From: Sphingomonas hankookensis
GTDB lineage: Bacteria > Pseudomonadota > Alphaproteobacteria > Sphingomonadales > Sphingomonadaceae
Assembly (NCBI RefSeq): GCF_028551275.1
Contig: NZ_CP117026.1
Location: 119,880-183,879, forward strand
Length of the DNA: 64,000 nt
Direction: 5' to 3'
The notes below the pieces were generated by a model. It worked only from the letters and a program-made list of their open reading frames with translations, did not search any database and was not told the origin of the DNA. A program made the position numbers and the translations under genes. Shown here piece after piece: positions 7,209-19,035 of the stretch. Every line of letters begins with the position of its first letter. Within the stretch, counting starts at the first letter, position 1.

Positions 7209-7403
7209 TCAGACGTCCGGTGCTTCGTCGGGACGCTGGTGGCGCAGCGCACGCGCGAGCGCCCGCTTGCGGGCGGTCGCCGCGGCGCGCGACGGATAGG
7301 CGCCCGAGAGGCGAGAGGGGTGTGACAAGCTGTTGTCGAACACGACCCAGCCCGTTGCGGTATGGGCGACGTGCATCCCGTCGCTGCGCGAGGGGGTGGT
7401 CAT
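7209..7403 (-). CDS. small hypothetical protein
   Basis: The product is 64 aa starting MTTPSRSDGMHVAHTATGWV. The C-terminal half is strongly basic (SRAAATARKRALARALRHQR). The ATG overlaps the stop of the upstream gene (ATGA at 7400-7403), so the two are probably translationally coupled. The N-terminal half resembles short 'DUF2188-like' strand pairs (W-V-V-F-D-N), but I am not confident of that. Confidence 0.6.
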   Translation of the reverse strand: MTTPSRSDGMHVAHTATGWVVFDNSLSHPSRLSGAYPSRAAATARKRALARALRHQRPDEAPDV

Positions 7404-7948
7404 GACGGGCGCGCCCGCCTGATCGCGGCCTCGGCGATGAGCTGGCCGGCAAGCGTGTTGCGATGCGACGCGATCCGGCTGTCGGGCGCAGCCACGACTT
7501 CGGCCGCGCGTGTCAGCAGCGCAGCGAGGTCAATGTCCGACATCGGCGCCGGGTTGGTCGCGGATCGCGCGGGTTCTTCCCCGGCCTTGTCGAGCATCAG
7601 CACGAGGATCGAGGGCTTGATCTCTTCGTCGAGCGGTCGACTGTCGGCGACGAACTTGCCGCCACGCGTGATCGCGAACGCGTTGAAGGTGGGTGATACC
7701 CCGTTATCGGCGTTGGGGATCGTGGTGCCGCGGTCGTGGAACTGGATGTCGATGAAGCGGGGCGGGCCACCATAAGTGGATTCGAGAAAGCAGAAGGTGA
7801 CGCGGCGACCCTCGCTGGTCTTCGCCGTGATCGTGAACGCGCCGTCGGGCACGTCGATTGGTTTGTGCGGCACGTCGTTGTAGCCGGCGAAGCCCGCGGC
7901 GATCGCGTCGGCGCGCGTCATGACGGGGAGATCGGTGATATCGGGCAT
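7400..7948 (-). CDS. hypothetical protein
   Basis: The product is 182 aa starting MPDITDLPVMTRADAIAAGF. The middle holds a DGAFTITAKTSEGRRVTFCF strand pair followed by PPRFIDIQFHD, and the C-terminus is helical. It lies immediately downstream of the PP-loop gene at 7971-9092 (22-bp gap) and is coupled to the small gene below it, so it may work with the PP-loop protein. No family is recognised. Confidence 0.65.
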   Translation of the reverse strand: MPDITDLPVMTRADAIAAGFAGYNDVPHKPIDVPDGAFTITAKTSEGRRVTFCFLESTYGGPPRFIDIQFHDRGTTIPNADNGVSPTFNAFAITRGGKFVADSRPLDEEIKPSILVLMLDKAGEEPARSATNPAPMSDIDLAALLTRAAEVVAAPDSRIASHRNTLAGQLIAEAAIRRARPS

Positions 7949-7970
7949 GATGAAAGCTCCTTGCTCTGGA

Positions 7971-9092
7971 TCAGGCGGCACGCTTCAGCGCGATCAGGTC
8001 GGAAAAGCGGTCTCGCACCGCGCCGGCATTGGGATAGAGATCGGCGAGACCGTGCCGCGAGAGGATCGGTGCGCGGGACGCGGCGATGATGCCGGCCTCC
8101 TCGATGGTGGGAATGCGCGGCGGCCAGCCTTTGACGTAGCGCAGGTCGGGCGGCATCGCGGCTTCGAGCCGTCGCCGCTCGGCGGCATCGGCCTTGGCGA
8201 GGGAAATCCGGTTCCTCAAATTACCCGGTATGTGACGCGGTGCGACGTCGGCGAGCCAGCGTGCGGGCTGGAACGAGAAGGTTGAGGTCGCCTCGAGGCC
8301 GACCAGGTGGAGCAGCGCGGGACGGTTCGCCGGTGCCGAAGCCGATGCCTGGGCGTCGCCGAGCGATTGAAGGACGCAAAAGCGGCACGACAGTCGTGAC
8401 GACTGGTAACAGGTGTAGGCGACGTGCAGCGGGATGCCGAGCGTATCGTGCGCGGCGAAGACCTGTGGTGTCGTCCAGTGCGCGATCGGGTTCCACAGCA
8501 TCATCGCGGTGCCGTGCGGATTGCCGGCAGCGGCGTAGCGCGCGTCTGCTTTCCATTCGGGTGTGCGTGACCGAGCGATGCTCTCGTCGCGGCGCAGTCC
8601 CAGCACGTTGATGATAGTCTGGCCGCGCAGCAGTCTGGCGAGGTGCGGCCCGATGACATGGGCCTTCATCTCTGAGGTGCAGAAGCGCAGCGCCGAGGAT
8701 GACCAGGGACCGATCAGATTATAGGTTTCGAGTGCCTCGTAGCGCGCCTTGCCGTTGGCAAAGCGCGTGGCCCAGCGGTCGAACAGGTCGCCGGCGTTGC
8801 GCCGGACGATCGTCAGCGGGACGCCGGCGTGGGCCGCGAGATCCTCGACCGTCGCGGGCGTTTCGTCCCATTCGGCACGGCCGAGGTCGGCGTGAATGGC
8901 GATACGCCGCTCGCGCGGATGGCCGAGCGCATCGAGGATCAGGTTGACCGCGAACATCGCGGCCGAGCTGTCCTTGCCGCCCGAGAGGTTGAAGACGATC
9001 CATGCGCCGCGTTCGACCGCGTCGAGGATGGCGGGCGGCAGGGCGAGGGCCGGAAGGCCGGCGACCAGGCCGCGTCCGATGTCGATGAACAT
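7971..9092 (-). CDS. PP-loop ATP pyrophosphatase, PAPS-reductase-like
   Basis: The product is 373 aa. The PP-loop signature is WIVFNLSGGKDSSAAMFAVN at about residues 31-50, where SGGKDS is the ATP-pyrophosphate loop. It is followed by HADLGRAEWDET, the conserved His-Ala-Asp-Leu turn of the adenylate-binding fold. Further on, RFCTSEMKAHVI and LGLRRDES match the PAPS-reductase and DndC-like layout. A CRFC pair in RLSCRFCVLQS could hold zinc or an iron-sulfur centre. Family members activate a substrate with ATP for sulfur or nitrogen transfer (sulfate reduction, tRNA thiolation, DNA phosphorothioation, QueC). No cysH-pathway genes are nearby. The neighbours are a Mom-like and a DpdA-like gene, so a nucleic-acid modification role is inferred. 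Confidence 0.8.
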   Translation of the reverse strand: MFIDIGRGLVAGLPALALPPAILDAVERGAWIVFNLSGGKDSSAAMFAVNLILDALGHPRERRIAIHADLGRAEWDETPATVEDLAAHAGVPLTIVRRNAGDLFDRWATRFANGKARYEALETYNLIGPWSSSALRFCTSEMKAHVIGPHLARLLRGQTIINVLGLRRDESIARSRTPEWKADARYAAAGNPHGTAMMLWNPIAHWTTPQVFAAHDTLGIPLHVAYTCYQSSRLSCRFCVLQSLGDAQASASAPANRPALLHLVGLEATSTFSFQPARWLADVAPRHIPGNLRNRISLAKADAAERRRLEAAMPPDLRYVKGWPPRIPTIEEAGIIAASRAPILSRHGLADLYPNAGAVRDRFSDLIALKRAA

Positions 9093-9098
9093 GGCCGT

Positions 9099-9815
9099 TC
9101 AGGCCGCGAGCGGCGCTGGCAGCGCCAGCCACTCGGGTTCGTCGTTGGCGATGACCGGATCGTGTGCGCGGGCCTCGGCTTTCGAGAACACGGTCGCGCT
9201 GGCGAGTGCCCCGAAGCCGTCGTCGTTGTTCCAGAAGACGGCGTGGCCGTCCTGGTCGCGCGAGGCGAGCACGAAACCGAAGCGACCCTCGTGACCATGG
9301 GTGTCGGGATCGGCTGCGGCGCTGCGCGCGGCGCGATCGAGGATGTCCTGGGTGCTGTGGAACGTCAGCCCCGCGTCGGTAATGATGACGCAGCCGCTTC
9401 CGAACTCGCCGGGGCGCAGCCGGTCGCAGTCGGAGATCCATGCGAACCCGCAGGGGAGCGCGGACTTGCAAGCGCGGAAGATGAGCTGGGCGACCTGTTC
9501 GACGCCGAATTGATCGCCGCTGAAGAATACGCGCGCGTTCCCGTCTTCGCCTTTCCAGTCGATGTCGATCGCGCAGTCGAGATAAGGGAAATGCCAATCG
9601 TCGAATATCTCGAGGAAGCTTTCGAACTTCATCGGCCCCTTCGCCGGGAACACGGCGTGAAACGCGGGATCGAGCGCGTCATATTCGTGGGCGAGGTCGG
9701 CATCGTCGCCGTTGGTGTCGAGGATATCGACTGCCTGTTCGGCAATGGTTAGCAACGCCGCGTCGGCGTGGCTCATGGTCAGCGTGAACGCGGCCTTGGT
9801 GTAGGTGTTCGCCAT
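9099..9815 (-). CDS. hypothetical protein
   Basis: The product is 238 aa starting MANTYTKAAFTLTMSHADAA. It is acidic with many aromatic residues. The segments FLEIFDDWHFPYLDCAIDID and GFAWISDCDRLRPGEFGSGC suggest a beta-rich sensor-like fold. It ends 7 bp before the PP-loop gene start and so is probably in the same transcript. I do not recognise the family. Confidence 0.65.
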   Translation of the reverse strand: MANTYTKAAFTLTMSHADAALLTIAEQAVDILDTNGDDADLAHEYDALDPAFHAVFPAKGPMKFESFLEIFDDWHFPYLDCAIDIDWKGEDGNARVFFSGDQFGVEQVAQLIFRACKSALPCGFAWISDCDRLRPGEFGSGCVIITDAGLTFHSTQDILDRAARSAAADPDTHGHEGRFGFVLASRDQDGHAVFWNNDDGFGALASATVFSKAEARAHDPVIANDEPEWLALPAPLAA

Positions 9816-9859
9816 GGGAATGCTCCGAAATGATGGGAAATCGCTCTGTGCGGTCGCGC

Positions 9860-10369
9860 TCAGGCGTCCGCGGCCTCGGCGAGACGCGCGTTGGCGGCCG
9901 CGGCCTCGGCGGGGTAAGCCTGCGTGAGATTGCCGTGCAGGACCGCGAAATCCGGGATCGGGAAAAGACCGTTCGGCCCGGGCCGGGTAATCAGCAGCGC
10001 GCTGATGACGGCATCGGCCGGATCGGCATGGACGATGGTGGGCGTCTCGCCGTTATACTCGACCGGCGCGGTGAAGCCCGCCTCGCGCCAGGTGGCGAGT
10101 CCCTCCTCGACGCGTGTCGCATAGTCGGCGACGGCCTCGTCGAGCTCGTTCTCGATATGGAGGACGAGTTCGACATAGCGACCGAAATCGTGTCGGTTGG
10201 ACAGGCCGGCGAGGCGGCATCCCGGGGGCGGCGGGCCGTAGCGTGCGATCAGCGCGGACTTGTAGACCGCGATTTCGAGGCGGTTGAGGCTGTCGAAGTT
10301 GGGCGACTGGCCGAGTTGCGCGCAATCCTCCTCGGCGGGACCGGCACCGAGATCGATAAAATATGGCAT
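9860..10369 (-). CDS. hypothetical protein
   Basis: The product is 169 aa starting MPYFIDLGAGPAEEDCAQLG. It contains RLEIAVYKSALIARYGPPPP and a long helix, YVELVLHIENELDEAVADYA, and ends in an Ala-rich tail. A purine-tract leader lies about 40 nt before the ATG. The function is unknown. Confidence 0.65.
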   Translation of the reverse strand: MPYFIDLGAGPAEEDCAQLGQSPNFDSLNRLEIAVYKSALIARYGPPPPGCRLAGLSNRHDFGRYVELVLHIENELDEAVADYATRVEEGLATWREAGFTAPVEYNGETPTIVHADPADAVISALLITRPGPNGLFPIPDFAVLHGNLTQAYPAEAAAANARLAEAADA

Positions 10370-10433
10370 GGGGCTCTCCGTCGATCGTCATTGATCGACG
10401 CGCCCCATCCCCCTCCCCTTTCTTGTCGGGTAC

Positions 10434-10748
10434 TCAGTCGCCGAAGAAGCGGCGCTTGATGGCGATCTGCGCCTCGCCATCGGACTGGCCGAGGGTCATC
10501 AGCCGGTCGGTCTCGAGCGTGATCGCGAGATCGGCGGGAAGATCGGCCCAGCGTGAGGCGATGGTGACCGCGGCGGCCGCTGTGGTCAGCTCGCCGGGGT
10601 GCGCGCCATGCCATGCGACGGTTTCGTCCTCACCCGTGAGATGCGGGTGCGGGCGCAGCACCTGGACGAAGAAGGTGCCAAGCGGGCGGTCCCACCCGAT
10701 GCTGACGCTGGTGCCGGGTTCGATACCGGGAAACTGGTGGCGGCTCAT
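10434..10748 (-). CDS. small hypothetical protein
   Basis: The product is 104 aa starting MSRHQFPGIEPGTSVSIGWD. Strand-rich segments (GTFFVQVLR, then a helix TTAAAAVTIASRWADL) precede a C-terminal LETDRLMTLGQSDG. The start at 10748 is fixed by the upstream gene ending at 10765 and by a GGAT-type ribosome site. The function is unknown. Confidence 0.65.
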   Translation of the reverse strand: MSRHQFPGIEPGTSVSIGWDRPLGTFFVQVLRPHPHLTGEDETVAWHGAHPGELTTAAAAVTIASRWADLPADLAITLETDRLMTLGQSDGEAQIAIKRRFFGD

Positions 10749-10764
10749 GGCGATCCTTTCAGGG

Positions 10765-11058
10765 TCAGTGCAGCGAGATCCACTCGCCGTGCCAGGGGCG
10801 CGGGTGCGGGTAGAAGCGAAGAACGCCTGGAACATCGGTTTCGCCGCTGGCGAGGCGTTCTTCCAGCCAGAGGATGTAGAGCGCGGCGTCGGCGAGATCG
10901 CCGGCGAGCAGATCGTCGAGCATCGCGGCCTCGCGCGCGGTCTGTTCGTCGAGCGCGGACCAGTCCAGCGCATCGAGGAAACGGTCGCGTCGATCGGTGT
11001 AGCGCGCGATGCGGGCAGCGTCGGCCTGGACGCTGGCGATGGCGAGATGGATATCCAC
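10765..11058 (-). CDS. small hypothetical protein, GTG start
   Basis: The product is 97 aa starting at GTG 11058 (MDIHLAIASVQADAARIARY). The GTG is chosen over an ATG eight codons earlier because GGAAGGAGC lies 6-8 nt before it. The fold is almost all helix, with an acidic middle (DEQTAREAAMLDDLLAGDLA). It is closely spaced with the gene below. The function is unknown. Confidence 0.65.
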   Translation of the reverse strand: MDIHLAIASVQADAARIARYTDRRDRFLDALDWSALDEQTAREAAMLDDLLAGDLADAALYILWLEERLASGETDVPGVLRFYPHPRPWHGEWISLH

Positions 11059-11135
11059 GGGCGGTGCTCCTTCCGGCATGTCGGTGACATGCCGCCCGCT
11101 CCCGCTCCCCTTCCCTCGCGCCGCTGGCGCGGGGA

Positions 11136-11942
11136 TCATGCCGCGAGGATTTCGCGGATCGCGTCGCTCCGGCGCGGATAGGCAAGCCGGGGCAGATCGC
11201 GCGCGGTGCGCCGGGCGTCGCGCGTCAGCTCGAAGCAATAGGTGAATAGCGGGCTTTGCCGGTGCGGGCGGAGCAGATTGTCGGCACGGAGCCGCGCGAG
11301 CCAGTCGGCGGGGTGTTCGTGCGCCTCCGGCCTCGGCGCACCGAGCCGCACCAGCTGGTCGATCGCCCCGGCATGGCCGGATTCGAGGTTGCGGATCTTC
11401 GACAGCGTTCTCTCCGAGATCGTCTCGCCGGCGATGCGCAGCACCGTCCGCGGCCTCGTGCGGCCGCGATAGGCGCCCGACAGCGCGGCATAGACGACGC
11501 CGCAATGGCCGAAGGCGGGATCGGAGAAGCTGACGACAGCGTCGATCCGGGGCTTGGCGAGGCGCAGGAGGCGGAAGGCGCGCGACGTGAAGAAGCTTTC
11601 GCCGTTCGCGGCGACCGAGGGCAGGCAGATGAGCCGTTGCAGTACGCAGCCCCGAGCGGGATCGGCATAGCCGGTGTGCCGGGTGATGACCGCGCCGGTC
11701 GCCGGCACGCCGAACACGATGAGACCGACCAACGTGGATCTGCCCGGGTCGCCCGGACCGAACAGCCCGCAGGCGAGCTGGGCGGCGGGATAGCGCGGGA
11801 GGTAATGATGGTCGGCGAGGAATGCGCGGGCAGTATCATGGGCGACGACATCGACGGCGTAGCGGCGCGGGTCGATCACGCTGTCGCCGGCAACGAACAA
11901 GCTGCGCCGGTCGCGCCAGCGCTGGGAGCGGTCGGTGAGCAT
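11136..11942 (-). CDS. Mom-like DNA-modifying acyltransferase
   Basis: The product is 268 aa. It matches the pattern of Mom-family proteins (GNAT fold), which in phage Mu convert adenine in DNA to a carbamoylmethyl-type derivative and block restriction. Visible landmarks are ARAFLADHHYLPRYPAAQLA at about residues 38-57, LVGLIVFGVPATGAVITRH, CVLQRLICLPSVAANGESFF, then AVVSFSDPAFGHCGVVYAAL and a C-terminal ERTLSKIRNLESGHAGAIDQ. A CGGAGGTAACC leader gives a strong ribosome site. It starts 12 bp after the DpdA-like gene ends, so they almost certainly share a transcript. A modification role is inferred from family and context. The base that is modified cannot be read from sequence. Confidence 0.78.
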   Translation of the reverse strand: MLTDRSQRWRDRRSLFVAGDSVIDPRRYAVDVVAHDTARAFLADHHYLPRYPAAQLACGLFGPGDPGRSTLVGLIVFGVPATGAVITRHTGYADPARGCVLQRLICLPSVAANGESFFTSRAFRLLRLAKPRIDAVVSFSDPAFGHCGVVYAALSGAYRGRTRPRTVLRIAGETISERTLSKIRNLESGHAGAIDQLVRLGAPRPEAHEHPADWLARLRADNLLRPHRQSPLFTYCFELTRDARRTARDLPRLAYPRRSDAIREILAA

Positions 11943-11953
11943 GGTTACCTCCG

Positions 11954-12958
11954 TCAGGCCGCGTCGGCGTAGATCTCGGCCGCCCAGGTCTCGATCCATC
12001 CGGTGGTGATCTCATCGTGATCGAGATCGCCGCTCTCGATCAGGGCGCGGATCTCGGCGCGAGCCTGCGCGATCGCGCGTTCCCAGGGGTCGGCGGTTGG
12101 TGGCGGTGGAGCAGACGCCGCGGCCTCGGGCAGGTGTCGCGGTGTTTCGAGCGTTCGCGCGCATTGCGTGCGATACCAGCGTTCCATGAAGTCGGCGCCG
12201 AGCGCGTCGGTCTTGGCGATGCGATGCCTGAGCGCGTGCTGTCGCACGCCTACGCCCCATCCCTGGCTGTCTATCGAGGCGATCCAGCGTGCGAACGGCG
12301 TGAGGTACGGCAGGGCATCGCCTTTCACCCCGAAGAGGTGCGCCTTGACGCCGATCGGCAGGATGCGGGTCAGCCGCTCGACGACGGCGATCAGCCCTTC
12401 GGGACCGTGGATCGGTCGCCGGCACATGCTGCCGATGCCGACGACGGTGCCGGGCAGGATCAGACCGCCGATCGCGTCGAGTGAACGGACGTAGTCGTCG
12501 GGCACGCGGCCCTGCAGCACGGGCATCAGCCGGTCGCGGATGGCCAAGTCGTCGGCGCGGGCAAAGCATTCTCGGTTGGTGGCGGTGGTGCGCGCGATGC
12601 GGTCGAGCACTTCCTCGCGGTCGTGGGCAACGCCCTCTTCGCAGCAGTAATCGACCGACGAGATGCGTCGGAACGGCCATGACGCGGCGAGCGCCATGTA
12701 ATCGGCGATGCTCCAGGGAAGCCCGCCATAGCGGACCATCATGGTGTAACCGGCGGAATCGAGGTCGACGCTGGCGAGCGGTCGCGCGTTGGCGAGCGTT
12801 CCGGTGCGCCATCCCGACCACTCGCGCCAGCCATCGGCCTTGCGCCAGCGCGACAGACAATTGGCCGAGATCAGCACCGGTGCTTGCAGCGCGACCGCGC
12901 GCTGAAGGATAGGCCCGTTTGCGAGATGCGGCAGGCCGAGGATGATCTCGATCGTCAT
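11954..12958 (-). CDS. DpdA-like DNA transglycosylase (TGT superfamily)
   Basis: The product is 334 aa with the layout of DpdA/DUF7221 proteins, TIM-barrel relatives of tRNA-guanine transglycosylase that exchange a base in DNA for a 7-deazaguanine. In order: LISANCLSRW, then SVDLDSAGYTMMVRYGG (candidate active-site Asp), SSVDYCCEEGVAHDREEVL, RLMPVLQGRVPDDYVRSLDA, VVGIGSMCRRPIHGPEGLI, VKAHLFGVKG and ASIDSQGWGVGVRQHALRH. The last region lacks the usual C-x2-C zinc ligands of TGTs. No preQ0 synthesis genes are visible, so substrate would have to come from the host. A TAGC-rich repeat (12961-12988) sits where the ribosome site should be and may be an operator. Confidence 0.78.
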   Translation of the reverse strand: MTIEIILGLPHLANGPILQRAVALQAPVLISANCLSRWRKADGWREWSGWRTGTLANARPLASVDLDSAGYTMMVRYGGLPWSIADYMALAASWPFRRISSVDYCCEEGVAHDREEVLDRIARTTATNRECFARADDLAIRDRLMPVLQGRVPDDYVRSLDAIGGLILPGTVVGIGSMCRRPIHGPEGLIAVVERLTRILPIGVKAHLFGVKGDALPYLTPFARWIASIDSQGWGVGVRQHALRHRIAKTDALGADFMERWYRTQCARTLETPRHLPEAAASAPPPPTADPWERAIAQARAEIRALIESGDLDHDEITTGWIETWAAEIYADAA

Positions 12959-12960
12959 CG

Positions 12961-12988
12961 TCTAGCGGCCAGCTAGCTGATAGCTGTC
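12961..12988. promoter_or_regulatory. TAGC-rich repeat abutting the DpdA-like start
   Basis: TCTAGCGGCC followed by AGCTAGCTGATA (12971-12982) ends 3 bp before the start codon. The 12-mer AGCTAGCTGATA occurs identically at 51751-51762 in front of parA. TCTAGCGGC also recurs at 50724-50732. This suggests a binding site for the plasmid's ribbon-helix-helix protein, but no binding has been shown. Confidence 0.5.
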
Positions 12989-13008
12989 GGCCATTCCGAC
13001 AATACGCA

Positions 13009-13368
13009 TCACAGATCCTCGCGCAGCATGAGCGTGAGAACACGGCGCGTGATGCTGGCGTCGGCGGGGTCTTCCGATCCCCATTCCAGCGCCACGTCAT
13101 AATAATCGATACGGAAGTGTATCGTCTCGCCTGACAGCTCGAACTGGCCGCGATCGCGCTCGGGACAGTCGGCGGGGAAAGTGTAGCGGCGCAGCGCCTG
13201 CAGGACATGCGCCTGGGCGACGGCTTCCGAGGCGAGCGTGCCGTTCGACAGCGCGCCGAGGCACGCGCGCGTCATGACGATCTTCGCGGTGCGGTCGAAC
13301 CCCTGGCGGCAACGGTCGTTGAGCCTGGCCACGGCTTCGAGGCGCGTTTCGGTGGCGGTCGAAATCAT
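13009..13368 (-). CDS. DUF3768 family protein
   Basis: The product is 119 aa. It contains ARLNDRCRQGFDRTAKIVMT, the conserved V-M-T-R segment, then HFRIDYYDVALEWGSEDPAD and the end TRRVLTLMLREDL. These are the usual DUF3768 blocks (LND-x-(F/C)-R, then IDYYD, DPADP and RVLTIML). It is a small alphaproteobacterial plasmid protein of unknown role. ATG 13368 is chosen because the conserved part begins right after it. Confidence 0.82.
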   Translation of the reverse strand: MISTATETRLEAVARLNDRCRQGFDRTAKIVMTRACLGALSNGTLASEAVAQAHVLQALRRYTFPADCPERDRGQFELSGETIHFRIDYYDVALEWGSEDPADASITRRVLTLMLREDL

Positions 13369-13411
13369 GTGATGATCCTCCGTTTGGTCGATAGCGATGG
13401 TGGCGGGGACT

Positions 13412-14377
13412 TCAGGCGGCGAGCGCGTCGCTTCGTCCCCGGCCTCGTTCGGGAAAGGCCGCATGGAAGCGGTCGAGCCAGTCGCCCATCGTCGGGCGCT
13501 CGCCGAGCGGGATGACGGCCGCGACATCCTGGAACCGGATGAGGTCGAGCGGCGCATCGCGGATGATCCGGTCGATCTCGTCAGCCGGCAGGAGGTGCTC
13601 GTCGCGGATGAAGGCGGTCATCGATCCCGGGCGCGCGCGGGTCGATCTGCGCCACAGGCCCTCGACCGTGTGCAGTCGCGGGGCGGCGCGTGCCTCGACC
13701 AGCACGATGAGTCGCAGGCACCATTGCGGGAGGCCGCGGATTTCGCTCGGATGGTTGGCGATGCACAGCCAGCACGCCGATTTGGGTGGCACCGGCAGAC
13801 CCTCGGCCTGGATGCGGGCGACGCAGTCGGGCCGGTCCCATCGCCATTCGCGCAAGGGGTACTCGCAGTCGTACAGCGGATCGTCGATCGACAGCGCATG
13901 GTTGGCGCGCGCGGTGTCGCGCGGTCCGGCGTCATAGCCGATCAGGCGAACGACGCGCTGCCCGCGCGCCCAAGCGTCGACCGCTGGTTGCCAGGTCGAC
14001 AGGAATTTGTCCTGCGGCGCCTTCTTGTATTTGAGGCTGCAACTCGACCCGCCGAGCGACTTGCTCGGCAGCGTGGCATTGGTCAGGCACATCTCGAGGA
14101 TGCCGTAATAGGGCGGCCAGTGCTTGAATCGCTTCGGGACATAGCTGACCAGCTCGAAACGGATACCGCGGTCGCGCATCCAGGGCCGGATCACGTCGAG
14201 ATATTCGTAGGTCGCCGGTTTCTCGACCGAGGTATCGGCGGTCAGCACGAGGTCAGGCGCTTCGCCGCGCGCGTGCTTCTCGATCAGCAGCGCGGTGCTG
14301 TCGACGCCGATGCCGTAGGCCAGCACCACTGGTGGCGGCGGCGCCAGCGGCACGACCGGAACTGGCGCGCCGGTCAT
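13412..14377 (-). CDS. second PP-loop / PAPS-reductase-like protein
   Basis: The product is 321 aa. After a Pro-rich start the PP-loop reads VVLAYGIGVDSTALLIE (about residues 17-33), with G-I-G-V-D-S replacing S-G-G-K-D-S. It is followed by LVLTADTSVEKPATYEYLD. A Cys pair, ACWLCIANHP, lies at about residue 200, and GGSSCSLKYKKAP at about 110 resembles the C-x-x-K-(Y/W)-K region of phage-type PAPS-reductase proteins. It is coupled to the 64-aa gene upstream (ATGA at 14374-14377). Two different PP-loop enzymes in one short cluster suggest a multistep modification pathway. The substrate is unknown. Confidence 0.75.
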   Translation of the reverse strand: MTGAPVPVVPLAPPPPVVLAYGIGVDSTALLIEKHARGEAPDLVLTADTSVEKPATYEYLDVIRPWMRDRGIRFELVSYVPKRFKHWPPYYGILEMCLTNATLPSKSLGGSSCSLKYKKAPQDKFLSTWQPAVDAWARGQRVVRLIGYDAGPRDTARANHALSIDDPLYDCEYPLREWRWDRPDCVARIQAEGLPVPPKSACWLCIANHPSEIRGLPQWCLRLIVLVEARAAPRLHTVEGLWRRSTRARPGSMTAFIRDEHLLPADEIDRIIRDAPLDLIRFQDVAAVIPLGERPTMGDWLDRFHAAFPERGRGRSDALAA

Positions 14378-14568
14378 GGCGCCTCCTCCGGTTCTAGATA
14401 GGTGTCATAGGGCGCACCGGCAGACTCGATCCAGCTACCCTCCTCGTCGAGATTCTCGATCCGTGCGAGCAGCGCCGCCTTCAGCTGGCGCGCATCGACG
14501 TCGTGGCCCTTGTCGTCGTTCGAGACGAGGCTGAAGGCGAGCGTGTAGGCGTGGTTGTAGCGCGCCAT
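14374..14568 (-). CDS. small hypothetical protein
   Basis: The product is 64 aa starting MARYNHAYTLAFSLVSNDDK. The pattern, beta strand then the helix DARQLKAALLARIENLDEEG, looks like a small sensor or partner protein. It overlaps the PP-loop gene by 4 bp (ATGA) and starts 1 bp from the stop of the GHKL ATPase gene, so all three are tightly coupled. The function is unknown. Confidence 0.65.
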   Translation of the reverse strand: MARYNHAYTLAFSLVSNDDKGHDVDARQLKAALLARIENLDEEGSWIESAGAPYDTYLEPEEAP

Positions 14569-14569
14569 G

Positions 14570-16267
14570 TCACGCGTCCTCCGCCGCGGCCTTGGGCGCG
14601 GCGGGAACCGCGCGGGGCGTGATCGTCACGTCGAGCCGGTCGCGATTGATGACGACGGTGACCGTCCGGTCCTCGGGGACGAGGAAATAATGCCCCGCCA
14701 GCTTGTCGCGAATGCGGTTCTCAAGCGCGGCATCGTCGCCTTCGAGCAGGCCGATGATTCGTTCGGCGGCATCGGCCTGGAAGCGCTCGAGCTGCGTATC
14801 GTAGCTGTCGGCATCGCTGTCGTCGCTGGCATAGAAGATCGCGCTTTCGAGGATGTCGGCGACGCCGAGCGCGGTGATTTCGCTGCCCCGGCGGACGAAG
14901 ACGGACGTCTCGTCGACCGAGTTGCACGACCATTGGTCGGGTGCGAAGGCGACATCCGCGTCGGTCGATACCTCGATGAATGCGCCGGCGTGGCTCATCG
15001 TCGCCTCGAGCGTGATAGCCTCGACCCAACCGTTTTCCGCCTCGGCGGGGGCTTCGCGGCTGTCGGAGACGATGAAGGTGCGGTCGCCCTGGGTGACGCG
15101 GAACCGCATATCCTCGACACGGGCGAGGATATCGTACCAGCCATAGCCCTTGAACGCGTCCTGGGCCTCGACCAGCGGACCACCGAACGGATTATGCTTC
15201 GCGATCGCCGCCTGCGCGGGTTGGCCGATCAGCGCATCGAAGTCGGGCATCAGCACCATGCCGGTGTCGGTCACGCGTGCGCCGCTCTCGTAGTTGCGCG
15301 AGCTGTCGGCCGCATAGGCGGTCCATGCGAACAGATAGGGCTCGGCTTCGGGTAGTGCGATACCGAGCGAGCGCGCCTCGCGCCAGTCATGCGCCGACAG
15401 CCGGTGCGTCCCCGCGGCCTCGATCGCGCGGTAGATCGCGAGCCGGACCGCATCGCGCAGGGCGGCGATGCCGGTGTTCTCGACCACTTCCTTGCGCGCC
15501 GGGAGGACGAGCTGGATTTGCGGCGCGTCGAAGATGTCGACCCGCGCGATCCAGTGGCCGCCCCGGTCGACTTCCTGAACATACGGCAGGTCGCACGGGA
15601 TGGTCAGCCCGTGGAAGTTGAGGCGTCCGTCGCGCGAGGAATAATGCGAGGGGTGTTTCTGGAACACGCCGATGCGCACGCCGTACCATTCCTCGACATG
15701 GACCGCGTCCTTCAGCCAGTCCTCCTGCGGAAGGACCGCGCCGTTCCAGGTCACGGGAACCGGATAATGTTTGGCGGCGCGGGCCACGTCGCGCTCGAGC
15801 GTCTTCAGCCACTCGTCGGGCACGCGCACGGTGATCGCGGTGCCGCGCATGATCGGATCGGGTTCGATCGCGATCGGGCGGCTCGTCTCCCACGCCGAGG
15901 CCGGGATATGCGCCATCCAGCCCTGGCGGTCGGGTTTCGAGAAGGAGCGGATGATGACGTCGCGGCCTGCGAGGCTGAACACGCCCATGCCGGCGGGATC
16001 TTCGGCGCGGCGCGTCTCGTCGGACCAGCCCGAGCGGCCGAGCGTGACGATGCTCACCGGATCGGCGATGCCGTGGCCGTCATCGGTGATGTGCAGGAAG
16101 TGCTCGGCGCCGGCGCCGTTCAGCGCGAGCGCGACGCCGGTCGCACCGGCGCGGCGCGCGTTCTGGAGGAGTTCGCAGATGACGTCGAACGCGGTATTGT
16201 TGAACAGGCGCGTGACCTTGGCGATCGTCTCGGGGGCGACCGCGGTCGCGATGGTGGCGGGAATCAT
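14570..16267 (-). CDS. GHKL-type ATPase (Hsp90/MORC-like N-terminus)
   Basis: The product is 565 aa. The N-terminal 200 residues form a Bergerat ATP-binding fold: ICELLQNARRAGATGVALAL (N box, Glu and Asn) at about 30-50, ITDDGHGI (G1 box) at about 59-66, and DPAGMGVFSLAGRDVIIRSF (G2 box) at about 89-108. The remainder is beta-rich and ends RDRLDVTITPRAVPAAPKAA. The family includes MutL, Hsp90 and MORC. Here it opens a coupled run with a 64-aa protein and a PP-loop enzyme, so it may provide ATP-driven clamping on DNA for that set. This is inference. Confidence 0.8.
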   Translation of the reverse strand: MIPATIATAVAPETIAKVTRLFNNTAFDVICELLQNARRAGATGVALALNGAGAEHFLHITDDGHGIADPVSIVTLGRSGWSDETRRAEDPAGMGVFSLAGRDVIIRSFSKPDRQGWMAHIPASAWETSRPIAIEPDPIMRGTAITVRVPDEWLKTLERDVARAAKHYPVPVTWNGAVLPQEDWLKDAVHVEEWYGVRIGVFQKHPSHYSSRDGRLNFHGLTIPCDLPYVQEVDRGGHWIARVDIFDAPQIQLVLPARKEVVENTGIAALRDAVRLAIYRAIEAAGTHRLSAHDWREARSLGIALPEAEPYLFAWTAYAADSSRNYESGARVTDTGMVLMPDFDALIGQPAQAAIAKHNPFGGPLVEAQDAFKGYGWYDILARVEDMRFRVTQGDRTFIVSDSREAPAEAENGWVEAITLEATMSHAGAFIEVSTDADVAFAPDQWSCNSVDETSVFVRRGSEITALGVADILESAIFYASDDSDADSYDTQLERFQADAAERIIGLLEGDDAALENRIRDKLAGHYFLVPEDRTVTVVINRDRLDVTITPRAVPAAPKAAAEDA

Positions 16268-16360: not shown

Positions 16361-16546
16361 TCAGCCTGCCTTGCCGTCGCGGAACGCGCCGACCACGGTG
16401 CCCGCGTCCCAGTGACCGCTGAGGATACCGCGACGCGGGACCGAGTTGATCGCATAGCGCCGCGCCGCGAGGAGGCGGGCACGCCGGGTGTCGCGGTCGA
16501 TCGGCGCGCCGGTTGCGATATCGCGGGCGAGGCGAAGCGGCGTCAT
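16361..16546 (-). CDS. small basic hypothetical protein
   Basis: The product is 61 aa starting MTPLRLARDIATGAPIDRDT. It is strongly basic (RRARLLAARRY) and could bind nucleic acid. The ATG overlaps the stop of the SANT-repeat gene (ATGA at 16543-16546), so it is translationally coupled to it. No family is recognised. Confidence 0.6.
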   Translation of the reverse strand: MTPLRLARDIATGAPIDRDTRRARLLAARRYAINSVPRRGILSGHWDAGTVVGAFRDGKAG

Positions 16547-17817
16547 GGCTTTTCCTCATCGATTGTGCCGGGGATGGCAACATGGTCGGTGACGCCCGTT
16601 CCCGAAGGATCGAGCGCGATAATTTCGGCGAGCGTCCAGGGGGCTGCGCGGCGCGGGCGACGCGAGAAGCGAAGCTCGTGCTTTTCGGCATATTTGTGGA
16701 CCGCTGGATATTTGCGGCCGATCGCTGCCGCAACATCAGGCAGCGCGACGCCGAAGTCGTGCGCGATGCGCAGCGCCCGGATCTCCTCTTCGGTCCATTT
16801 CCGGTGATAGCCGTGGACAAGGCCGAGGATGTTCGCGCGCGTGAACAGCGAAGCCTTGGTGCGACCCATCTTCGTCGCCAGGGCGTCCATCGGCATCGTG
16901 CCGTAAAGGTCGCGCAGCCTTTCCAGATCATTGTCGCTCCACACCGGCCCGCCCCGGAACCCGTCGCGGTTGGCATGTGTGCCGCGCAACCCGAGATAGT
17001 CGGCGCGCCAGCGGATAGAGCATTTCGTGCGGCCGAGCCTGGTCGTGAGCGGGGTCAGGCTTGCCCCGTCGGCATAGGCGCGGATGAGCAGTGTGTCTTC
17101 GTCAGGGGTCCAGTTGCGGCCCCATCCCCGGCCATAGCCGAGCTTGCGCAGGTGCGGCCCGAAGCCAGCCTTGGTCCTGCGCGGAAAGCCCTCTGTGGCG
17201 AGAATGTCGATGATCGCGATATAACGAAGCCCCTCCCCGGCCAGCGTCAGCGCCCGCGTCGCCTCGGCCTCGGTCCAGTCAGCGGGCTTGTTGGGATGGC
17301 GCAAACCGAGCGCGTTGGCACGGGTCGCGGTGCCGGACAGCGGGCGTCCGATCAGCGTGGCGATCTGTGCGATCGGGATCGCCTGCGCGTAGCCGGCGCG
17401 CAGCTGGGCATCCTCCCAGTCGCTCCATTTTGGAGGATTTCCTTCGGTCAGCCCGAGCACGCCCGCGCGGGCATAGACGCTGGTGCAGGCGCGGCCGAGA
17501 TCTCCAGCGAGATCGGCCGTGGGGCGAAGGCCATATTCGCGGGTGAGCCATGCGTCTTCGTCGGTCGACCACGGACGCGACGAATTGCGGCGCAGGCCCA
17601 GTTTGGCGATCTTGTCGCGCACGCCGGCGCGGCCGCGACCGAGCGCGGCGACGATGTCGTCGATCGCAGCGTCGTCGCAGAACATGCGTTCGACCGTGGC
17701 GATCTCGTCGGGGGTCCAGGCATCGTGCCGGAACGGCATCTCGCGCAGGCGCCCGCACGGCTCGGGCAGCTTCGGACACGCGACCAGCTCGACGATATCG
17801 GGCGCGAGGTCGGTCAC
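16543..17817 (-). CDS. multi-SANT/Myb-like repeat DNA-binding protein
   Basis: The product is 424 aa. At least seven repeats of 40-55 residues each start with a Trp and an acidic pair and end in an L-G-L/L-G-Y turn: AWTPDEIATVERMF, PWSTDEDAWLTREYG, KWSDWEDAQLRAGYA, DWTEAEATRALTLAG, NWTPDEDTLLIRAYA, VWSDNDLERLRDLYG and KWTEEEIRALRIAHD. A partial eighth (PWTLAEIIALDPSG) follows. The spacing W, then about 20 residues, then the (G/K)R-(T/S/G)-x(3)-(V/S/A) helix, fits Myb/SANT or GcrA-type helix-turn-helix units. Such long tandem arrays are unusual in bacteria. The gene overlaps the ATPase gene upstream by 4 bp. A role as an array-type DNA reader is inferred. Confidence 0.72.
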   Translation of the reverse strand: MTDLAPDIVELVACPKLPEPCGRLREMPFRHDAWTPDEIATVERMFCDDAAIDDIVAALGRGRAGVRDKIAKLGLRRNSSRPWSTDEDAWLTREYGLRPTADLAGDLGRACTSVYARAGVLGLTEGNPPKWSDWEDAQLRAGYAQAIPIAQIATLIGRPLSGTATRANALGLRHPNKPADWTEAEATRALTLAGEGLRYIAIIDILATEGFPRRTKAGFGPHLRKLGYGRGWGRNWTPDEDTLLIRAYADGASLTPLTTRLGRTKCSIRWRADYLGLRGTHANRDGFRGGPVWSDNDLERLRDLYGTMPMDALATKMGRTKASLFTRANILGLVHGYHRKWTEEEIRALRIAHDFGVALPDVAAAIGRKYPAVHKYAEKHELRFSRRPRRAAPWTLAEIIALDPSGTGVTDHVAIPGTIDEEKP

Positions 17818-19019
17818 AGCGACACCACGGCGACGTCGCTCAGCCGCGCGCGCAGCCGTGCATGCAGGCGGGCGATGCGGTCGTCGCCCTTGGGCATGGT
17901 GTCGACCGCGGCGATCGCCGACAGGAGGTTGAGCGCGCGGTCGGTGCGCTCGGCGTCGAGCGACAGGTGCCGTGCGAGGTCGCGCGCGGTGCTGGCGTTG
18001 GGGGAGATGCGCTTCAGCGCGTCCATGATCGCGGCCGCGTCGGTCGCAGCGGGATCGAGCAGGAACGCGTCGAGCGCGCGCGTGCCCTTGAGGGCGATGG
18101 CGGGGCCGTGGTCCGCGACCTCGGCCAGGCCCGCGAGATCGAGCAGCTTCGCCGCCTCGTCGGCATCGACGGACGCGGCGGCACGCAGTTCCGGGGTCTT
18201 GCCGAGATGTTCGGTGATGGTGGGATCGATATGCGCCAGCACCGGGGTTGCCGACAGCGCCGGACCCATCGCGAAGAAATCGCCGGGGGCGAGGTTGCGC
18301 AGCAGGTCGGCGTCACGCGCGGGAAAGCCGAGCAGGTCGGCCGCGCGCGCGATGTCGCGGTCGAAGACGTTGAGCCCGACCAGCACGTTCTGCAGCTCGG
18401 ACACGACCGAGGTGGAGAGCTTCGCGAGGCGCTGGGTGGCGATGACGGGGGCGAGACCGCGCTTGCGGCCGCGCGCGCACAGGTCGGTCAGGGTGGCGAC
18501 GCCGAGCCGGCGGGCATCGGCATCGAGCGCGGAACCGGCGACATGCGGTGCGAGCAGATGGCCCTCGTCGATGCACACCAGCATGGTATGCGCCCAGTCC
18601 TCGCGCGGTGCGCCGACCAGGCCGGCAAAGAACGCGGCTGCCTTGATGATCCGCTGGTCGGGATCGAGGTCGGTGAGGTCGATGTGCATCGACAGCCGAT
18701 GTCGCCGGCTGCGCGTCGCCGCGGCCGTCAGCCCGTCGGCGGTGAGTTCGACCGCGCGGATCGTGGTCGCGCCGATATGGCGGGCGAGGTTCTCGAATTC
18801 CCCCTCGGGGTCGACGATCGCAAGCGTCGTATAGTCGAACGCCTCCTCGATGATCCGGCGCAAGGTCCTGCTCTTGCCCGCCCCGGAGCTGCCCTGGATG
18901 AGCAGGCGTCCGGCAAGCAGGCGATCGAGGTCAAGGCTGAGCGTGCCGGTCGAATGATGGCCCAGCGGTACGCGATTGTCCGCGGCCTCGGGCGCGCGGA
19001 TCGGGGTAACACAGGTCAT
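17814..19019 (-). CDS. HerA/VirB4-like ATPase
   Basis: The product is 401 aa. Walker A is LLIQGSSGAGKSRTLRRII (about residues 39-57), followed by LAIVDPEGEFENLARHIGA (the D-P-x-G-E-(F/Y) motif typical of HerA/DUF87 ATPases). Walker B is HTMLVCIDEGHLLAP (about 145-160). A sensor-like LAPVIATQRLAKLSTSVVSE and NVLVGLNVFDRD then follow. HerA-type proteins are hexameric DNA translocases, often with a nuclease partner, but none is obvious nearby. The stop overlaps the start of the SANT-repeat gene (ATGA), so the two proteins are made together and may form a DNA-reading and DNA-pumping pair. Confidence 0.78.
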   Translation of the reverse strand: MTCVTPIRAPEAADNRVPLGHHSTGTLSLDLDRLLAGRLLIQGSSGAGKSRTLRRIIEEAFDYTTLAIVDPEGEFENLARHIGATTIRAVELTADGLTAAATRSRRHRLSMHIDLTDLDPDQRIIKAAAFFAGLVGAPREDWAHTMLVCIDEGHLLAPHVAGSALDADARRLGVATLTDLCARGRKRGLAPVIATQRLAKLSTSVVSELQNVLVGLNVFDRDIARAADLLGFPARDADLLRNLAPGDFFAMGPALSATPVLAHIDPTITEHLGKTPELRAAASVDADEAAKLLDLAGLAEVADHGPAIALKGTRALDAFLLDPAATDAAAIMDALKRISPNASTARDLARHLSLDAERTDRALNLLSAIAAVDTMPKGDDRIARLHARLRARLSDVAVVSL

Positions 19020-19035
19020 GGCGCGGTCCTCCGGG

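Follow-up and report, generated by a model that had tools for sequence, protein, structure and literature searches.

Relation to described DNA modification systems

The Mom protein of phage Mu performs the momylation of adenine in DNA. DpdA proteins of phages such as 9g and CAjan are transglycosylases of the tRNA-guanine transglycosylase (TGT) type that place 7-deazaguanine in DNA, and the dpd islands, exemplified by that of S. Montevideo, similarly rely on a TGT-like DpdA acting on DNA and on preQ0, as far as the accessible part of the island description goes (PMC11888242). Here, we analysed a 64-kb stretch of Sphingomonas hankookensis DNA, hereafter the window, in which a DpdA-like and a Mom-like gene are adjacent and are accompanied by two genes, PP1 and PP2, coding for PP-loop proteins that resemble phosphoadenosine phosphosulphate (PAPS) reductases. 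What appears to be new is the recurrent combination of known enzyme families, whose chemistry is predicted from their sequences. The set is probably a DNA-disguising kit carried by plasmids and some viruses.

The Mom-like protein (11136..11942; like all genes of the block, on the minus strand) is a GNAT-like acyltransferase of 268 amino acid residues. It belongs to the same Pfam family as Mu Mom (PF25680, 81.3 bits for a curated cut-off of 27.1, E=9.7e-23), and it recognisably matches the Mu Mom structure 8bv8 (E=5e-6). H46-Y47, R103 and D141 are invariant in 20 aligned sequences and align with the corresponding positions of that structure, which presumably have catalytic roles in Mom. NCBI names the sphingomonad homologues 'Mom family adenine methylcarbamoylation'. 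The window-type protein differs from Mu Mom, whose chain in 8bv8 has 232 residues, in a QRW motif that is conserved at the N terminus, in the greater length of its C-terminal part and in the clustering of its gene with PP-loop and DpdA genes.

An 11-bp gap with a GGAGG ribosome-binding-like sequence (11943..11953, read directly from the sequence) separates the Mom start from the stop of the gene for the DpdA/TGT-like transglycosylase (11954..12958, 334 residues). The latter protein scores 39.2 bits against PF23859 (curated cut-off 27). Its TGT (beta/alpha) barrel fold is shown by fold comparison, which was the sole source of a TGT match, as searches with the sequence and the profile against PDB sequences gave none. 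In alignments of 22 and 34 sequences, D67, D103, Q149, G174, G176-S177, H207 and D230-S231 are invariant, with S68 nearly so in one of the two; we take these residues to be the equivalents of catalytic and base-binding residues of the Z. mobilis TGT. The LDSG, HxFG and DS motifs are shared with phage DpdA, for which the comparison by alignment was made with the CAjan protein, not that of 9g. In contrast with the window protein, CAjan DpdA does not match PF23859, and BLASTP found no significant similarity between the two. A further difference from the phage systems is that QueC is chromosomal in the organism of the window. The Cys3-His zinc-binding site of tRNA TGT is missing, in that the 75 residues that follow the DS motif of the window protein contain no CxxC; this CxxC is likewise absent from all 80 DpdA loci of genomes and present in 54 of 80 viral ones (80 loci were kept per scan, from 231 and 132 relatives, respectively). 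The absence of zinc ligands had been pointed out in an earlier, sequence-only reading of this DNA. It stands, but it is not unusual, since CAjan DpdA, whose deletion abolishes preQ0 in the phage DNA according to the accessible part of PMC6884629, has no zinc Cys triad either, and we dropped it as a sign of divergence. In sphingomonads, the homologues carry the NCBI name 'deazapurine DNA modification protein DpdA family'. PADLOC, at E<=0.1, returned no match for the Mom, DpdA or GHKL-like proteins of the window. Where the dpd islands have other components, the window has Mom and PP-loop partners instead, and no DpdB- or DpdC-type domain was found in the 30 window proteins scanned against Pfam, a subset of its genes.

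PP1 (7971..9092, 373 residues) matches PF01507 (36.7 bits, cut-off 22.5, E=5.5e-9) and phrog_424 (E=5e-22), and its profile retrieves the PAPS reductase 6vpu from PDB (E=9e-5); its alignment shows an SGGKDS motif, C138 and C236xxC239. PP2 (13412..14377, 321 residues) has no Pfam match, and its profile gave no convincing match in PDB. Nevertheless, it matches phrog_424 (E=9e-20) and has a GxGVDS motif, C113 and C202xxC205 in its alignment. The family assignments made in the sequence-only reading for the DpdA-like, the Mom-like and the two PAPS-reductase-like PP-loop proteins are right. Their genes have ratios of non-synonymous to synonymous substitution rates of 0.05-0.19 relative to their relatives, and they are therefore maintained by purifying selection. 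PP1 has the PAPS-reductase-like core of DndC and SspD and weakly matches both models. However, its score of 24.2 bits is far under the curated cut-off of 290.4 for DndC, and a DndC-like phosphorothioation system was rejected; no other Dnd or Ssp component was present among nine proteins scanned.

The claim that no described system combines DpdA-type and Mom-type enzymes needs to be qualified. The jumbo phage PA5oct encodes Mom enzymes as well as a deazaguanine system in its genome, but the accessible text does not present these as one linked module that includes PP-loop enzymes (PMC7824862). For a Psychrobacter phage, Mom and PAPS reductase genes are listed without being linked to each other in the part of the source available (PMC10434257). 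A linked module of DpdA, Mom and PP-loop genes was not found in the accessible text of the open-licence literature searched.

Recurrence of the set in genomes, plasmids and viruses

The recurrence of the set in other plasmids and some viruses speaks for a functional unit, so that the interpretation given in the sequence-only reading holds in part. Among 397 genomes of the window's family, Sphingomonadaceae to judge from the closest matches, 19 have Mom, 24 have DpdA and 12 have both (Fisher p=4e-12, kinship ignored). The two genes share a contig in 11 of these 12 genomes, at distances of 0.4 to about 51 kb, with the exception of G057 (356 kb in contig coordinates). Around the 80 genome DpdA loci, Mom is found in the flanks of 36, PP1 of 28 and PP2 of 39, while 29 have none of the three; when the 17 closest loci (L020-L036) are set aside, the corresponding numbers for the 63 more distant ones (L037-L099) are 20, 16, 22 and 29, several loci stopping at contig ends. 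DpdA is found at 99-100% amino acid identity in contigs that bear the genus labels Sphingomonas, Sphingobium and Rhizorhabdus, and the blocks of L020-L028 are nearly identical, which indicates that the block moved recently and points to plasmid transfer.

Plasmids were compared for 60 of 91 DpdA entries and 59 of 83 Mom entries (one listed Mom entry was omitted), 26 records being in both sets. Gene orders vary, from the window type, GHKL-PP2-DUF3768-DpdA-Mom-..-PP1, to PP1-Mom-x-PP2 with a distant DpdA. A Piscinibacter plasmid (L009) has PP1-Mom-PAPS reductase-..-DpdA, and in the plasmid of Azospira sp. I09 (L008) DpdA is followed by PP1, with Mom about 74 kb off on the same plasmid. Sets without DpdA also occur: a 24-kb stretch of the gentR plasmid (L001) has Mom and PP2 with neither DpdA nor PP1, and a Streptomyces plasmid (L425) has PP-Mom-PP, in which Mom is confirmed by Pfam and the PP-loop calls come from custom profiles and a sub-threshold Pfam match. 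Conversely, DpdA is found without Mom in many loci.

Clustering is also observed in viral contigs. In 80 viral Mom loci, kept from 101 relatives, 11 of 14 partner genes lie within 2.5 kb of Mom (364 kb of sequence in total), and the remaining 865 kb have 3 (p=2e-4; with one duplicate removed, p=6e-4). Repeat contigs (L102=L180; L116=L219=L306) were counted once per scan. All 11 near partners are on the strand of Mom, which is weak evidence because phage genes often share a strand. Several orders are represented, namely DpdA-PP1-Mom (L238), PP1-Mom-DpdA (L116), Mom-DpdA (L224) and DpdA..Mom (L102).

Predicted function and alternative explanations

We see roughly even chances that the block represents a mobile cassette for the hypermodification of DNA bases, directed against restriction and with two partly separable branches. 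In one branch, the Mom-type enzyme would install an acyl or carbamoylmethyl-type group on an exocyclic base amine, and one or both of the PAPS-reductase-like PP-loop enzymes would assist it by ATP-dependent activation of the base or the donor. In the other branch, the DpdA-type transglycosylase would exchange guanine in DNA for a 7-deazaguanine (preQ0) made by the host chromosome. The modified DNA of the plasmid, or of the phage in the case of viral relatives, would then resist restriction on entry into a new host. In this scheme, we infer DNA as the substrate, the identity of the base, the reactions of the PP-loop enzymes and the role against restriction. The existence of Mom and PP-loop sets without DpdA, and of DpdA without Mom, leads us to favour separable branches over one jointly made base.

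As for the supply of preQ0, the sequence-only reading had noted that genes for its synthesis were not visible. QueC was indeed not found on the contig of the window. Nevertheless, QueC and TGT are both encoded on the chromosome-size contig C1 of the same genome, which would make preQ0 genes dispensable on the plasmid. Full-length QueC is present in 22 and TGT in 23 of the 24 DpdA-carrying genomes, a check that, of the preQ0 genes queC, folE, queD and queE, covered queC. G017 has DpdA, Mom, PP1 and PP2 together in a segment of about 20 kb (contig C1, 3.38 Mb long, at ~2.61-2.62 Mb; L420). Having all four genes but neither full QueC nor TGT, this genome represents a natural test of preQ0 dependence.

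Several observations weigh against a two-branch cassette. G017, a genome that is 96% complete, has neither full QueC nor TGT although it carries all four genes, and G200 has no full QueC; moreover, QueC and TGT are common in bacteria, and their presence is weak evidence. Insertion of 7-deazaguanine by the PF23859 subfamily was not found in the accessible text of the literature searched. Phage Orion, which has DpdA only and whose protein may be of this or another subfamily, had no 7-deazaguanine in its DNA, but its host is unable to make preQ0 (PMC6884629, accessible part). In viruses, 71 of the 80 DpdA loci have no partner in their flanks, and the partners found around viral DpdA are distributed almost evenly, with 6 within 2.5 kb and 5 farther away. 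Among the best 80 of at least 201 viral PP1 loci, DpdA is found in 2 and Mom in 1, and among the best 80 of at least 210 viral PP2-like loci, DpdA is found in none and Mom in 5. Lastly, among five Mom plasmid loci chosen from outside the sphingomonads (L425-L429), PP-loop matches are confined to L425, and no DpdA lies within 6-8 kb in any of them; on the other four, from a second Streptomyces, Variovorax, Burkholderia and Brevundimonas (L426-L429), Mom stands alone with respect to the four profiles.

The adjacency of the genes might alternatively reflect a joint pathway, to which we give a small but tangible chance. DpdA would insert a 7-deazaguanine, the PP-loop enzymes would amidate or thiolate its side chain, and Mom would acylate the resulting amine, so that the product would be a hypermodified, acylated 7-deazaguanine. 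In L238 and L116, DpdA, PP1 and Mom directly follow one another in one order or another, DpdA and Mom are adjacent in the window and in L224, and further-modified 7-deazaguanines of phages are in print, as seen in the accessible part of PMC12783734. In addition, PP1 pairs with DpdA without a nearby Mom (L134, L008) and with Mom without a nearby DpdA (L218), and would therefore link the two. However, a joint pathway does not predict the Mom and PP-loop set of L425, Mom and PP2 in L001, both devoid of DpdA, or the many DpdA loci without Mom, unless other enzymes substitute. If true, it would yield a DNA base new to our knowledge and a Mom-family enzyme with a non-adenine target.

It seems unlikely that the block is a loose island, in which independent anti-restriction or accessory genes gather in the same regions of plasmids and phages and share no pathway. 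The shuffled gene order fits this idea, as do the 7-51 kb that separate Mom from DpdA in 7 of the 11 genomes with both on one contig (G257, G114, G200, G017, G149, G331, G220), the partnerless viral DpdA loci mentioned above and the presence of methyltransferase genes nearby (L008, L009, L011). The tight clustering at Mom in viral contigs and the adjacency of the genes in several independent orders nevertheless argue against it. Finally, it is quite improbable that the TGT-like protein acts on another nucleic acid or another base rather than as a 7-deazaguanine DNA transglycosylase: what is shown is a TGT-like fold and motifs, the protein has no significant BLASTP similarity to CAjan DpdA, singleton DpdAs were flagged by those who described them as perhaps diverged in function (PMC6884629, accessible part) and G017 does not have full QueC and TGT, but the base-binding and nucleophile motifs of TGT and DpdA are conserved in both alignments and the Mom context suggests DNA.

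The gene block and its setting

The window is the final 64 kb of a 183,879-base contig, in a genome of 4 contigs and 3.95 Mb, and its closest matches are from sphingomonads. The contig is plasmid-like, as it encodes RepA_C, ParB, SSB and Toprim proteins and a Strawberry-notch helicase and has insertion sequences. On the minus strand, the block starts with the GHKL-like ATPase gene (14570..16267, 565 residues), followed by a gene for a 64-residue protein (14374..14568), PP2 and a DUF3768 gene (13009..13368; PF12599, E=1e-16), which precedes the DpdA-like and Mom-like genes. Next come genes for four proteins without assigned function: one of about 97 residues directly after Mom (10765..11058), whose start is uncertain and whose profile extends into the frame of Mom at some of the loci, and proteins of 104 (10434..10748), 169 (9860..10369) and 238 residues (9099..9815), which recur in relatives, the last one adjoining PP1. 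Downstream of PP1, and overlapping its end, is a gene for a function-unassigned protein of 193 residues (7400..7981), which recurs near Mom or PP2 in relatives. There was no Pfam match for the 169-, 238- and 193-residue proteins.

Parts of the set recur together on other plasmids and in some viruses, but the GHKL ATPase, which the sequence-only reading had counted among them, is not a constant partner. It is within 3 kb of PP2 in 15 of the 41 genome loci with PP2, and we rejected it as a core part; in 21 of the 26 PP2 loci without it nearby, the sequence reaches beyond 3 kb on the upstream side of PP2. Its name denotes a weak resemblance, its scores being below the HATPase cut-offs (18.9 bits for 25, and 15.9 for 26.4). 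A DUF87/HerA-like ATPase gene (17814-19022, minus strand), which matches the mad8 (E=2e-13) and HerA models of PADLOC, overlaps the downstream open reading frame 16543-17817 and is found beside the GHKL gene in several relatives.

Other neighbourhoods were observed in relatives. On the Azospira plasmid (L008, 6948-14167), the DpdA-like and PAPS-reductase-like genes come shortly after genes for a DNA cytosine methyltransferase and a thymidylate synthase homologue, together with phage Gp37/Gp68-type and DUF4326 genes. The DpdA-like gene of an Erythrobacter aureus plasmid (L012, 6013-18962) is near a cytosine methyltransferase gene and genes for macro-domain and NADAR proteins. On the Variovorax sp. 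SRS16 plasmid (L427, 4205-8834), the Mom-like gene adjoins a divergent block that encodes a member of the Asp/Glu racemase family, a PP-loop protein of the NAD-synthase type, a 2-oxoglutarate-Fe(II) oxygenase and a further protein whose GNAT match is below threshold. Together, these genes may form a different modification cassette.

Implications

In the literature that we read or recall, modifications of the DpdA and Mom types have so far been studied as separate phage tricks. Recurring together with PP-loop enzymes, both on plasmids and in viruses, such a set would amount to a DNA disguise of a new type. It would provide a context for singleton DpdAs and candidate partners for Mom chemistry, and it would hint at the way in which large plasmids of sphingomonads might cross from one genus to another.

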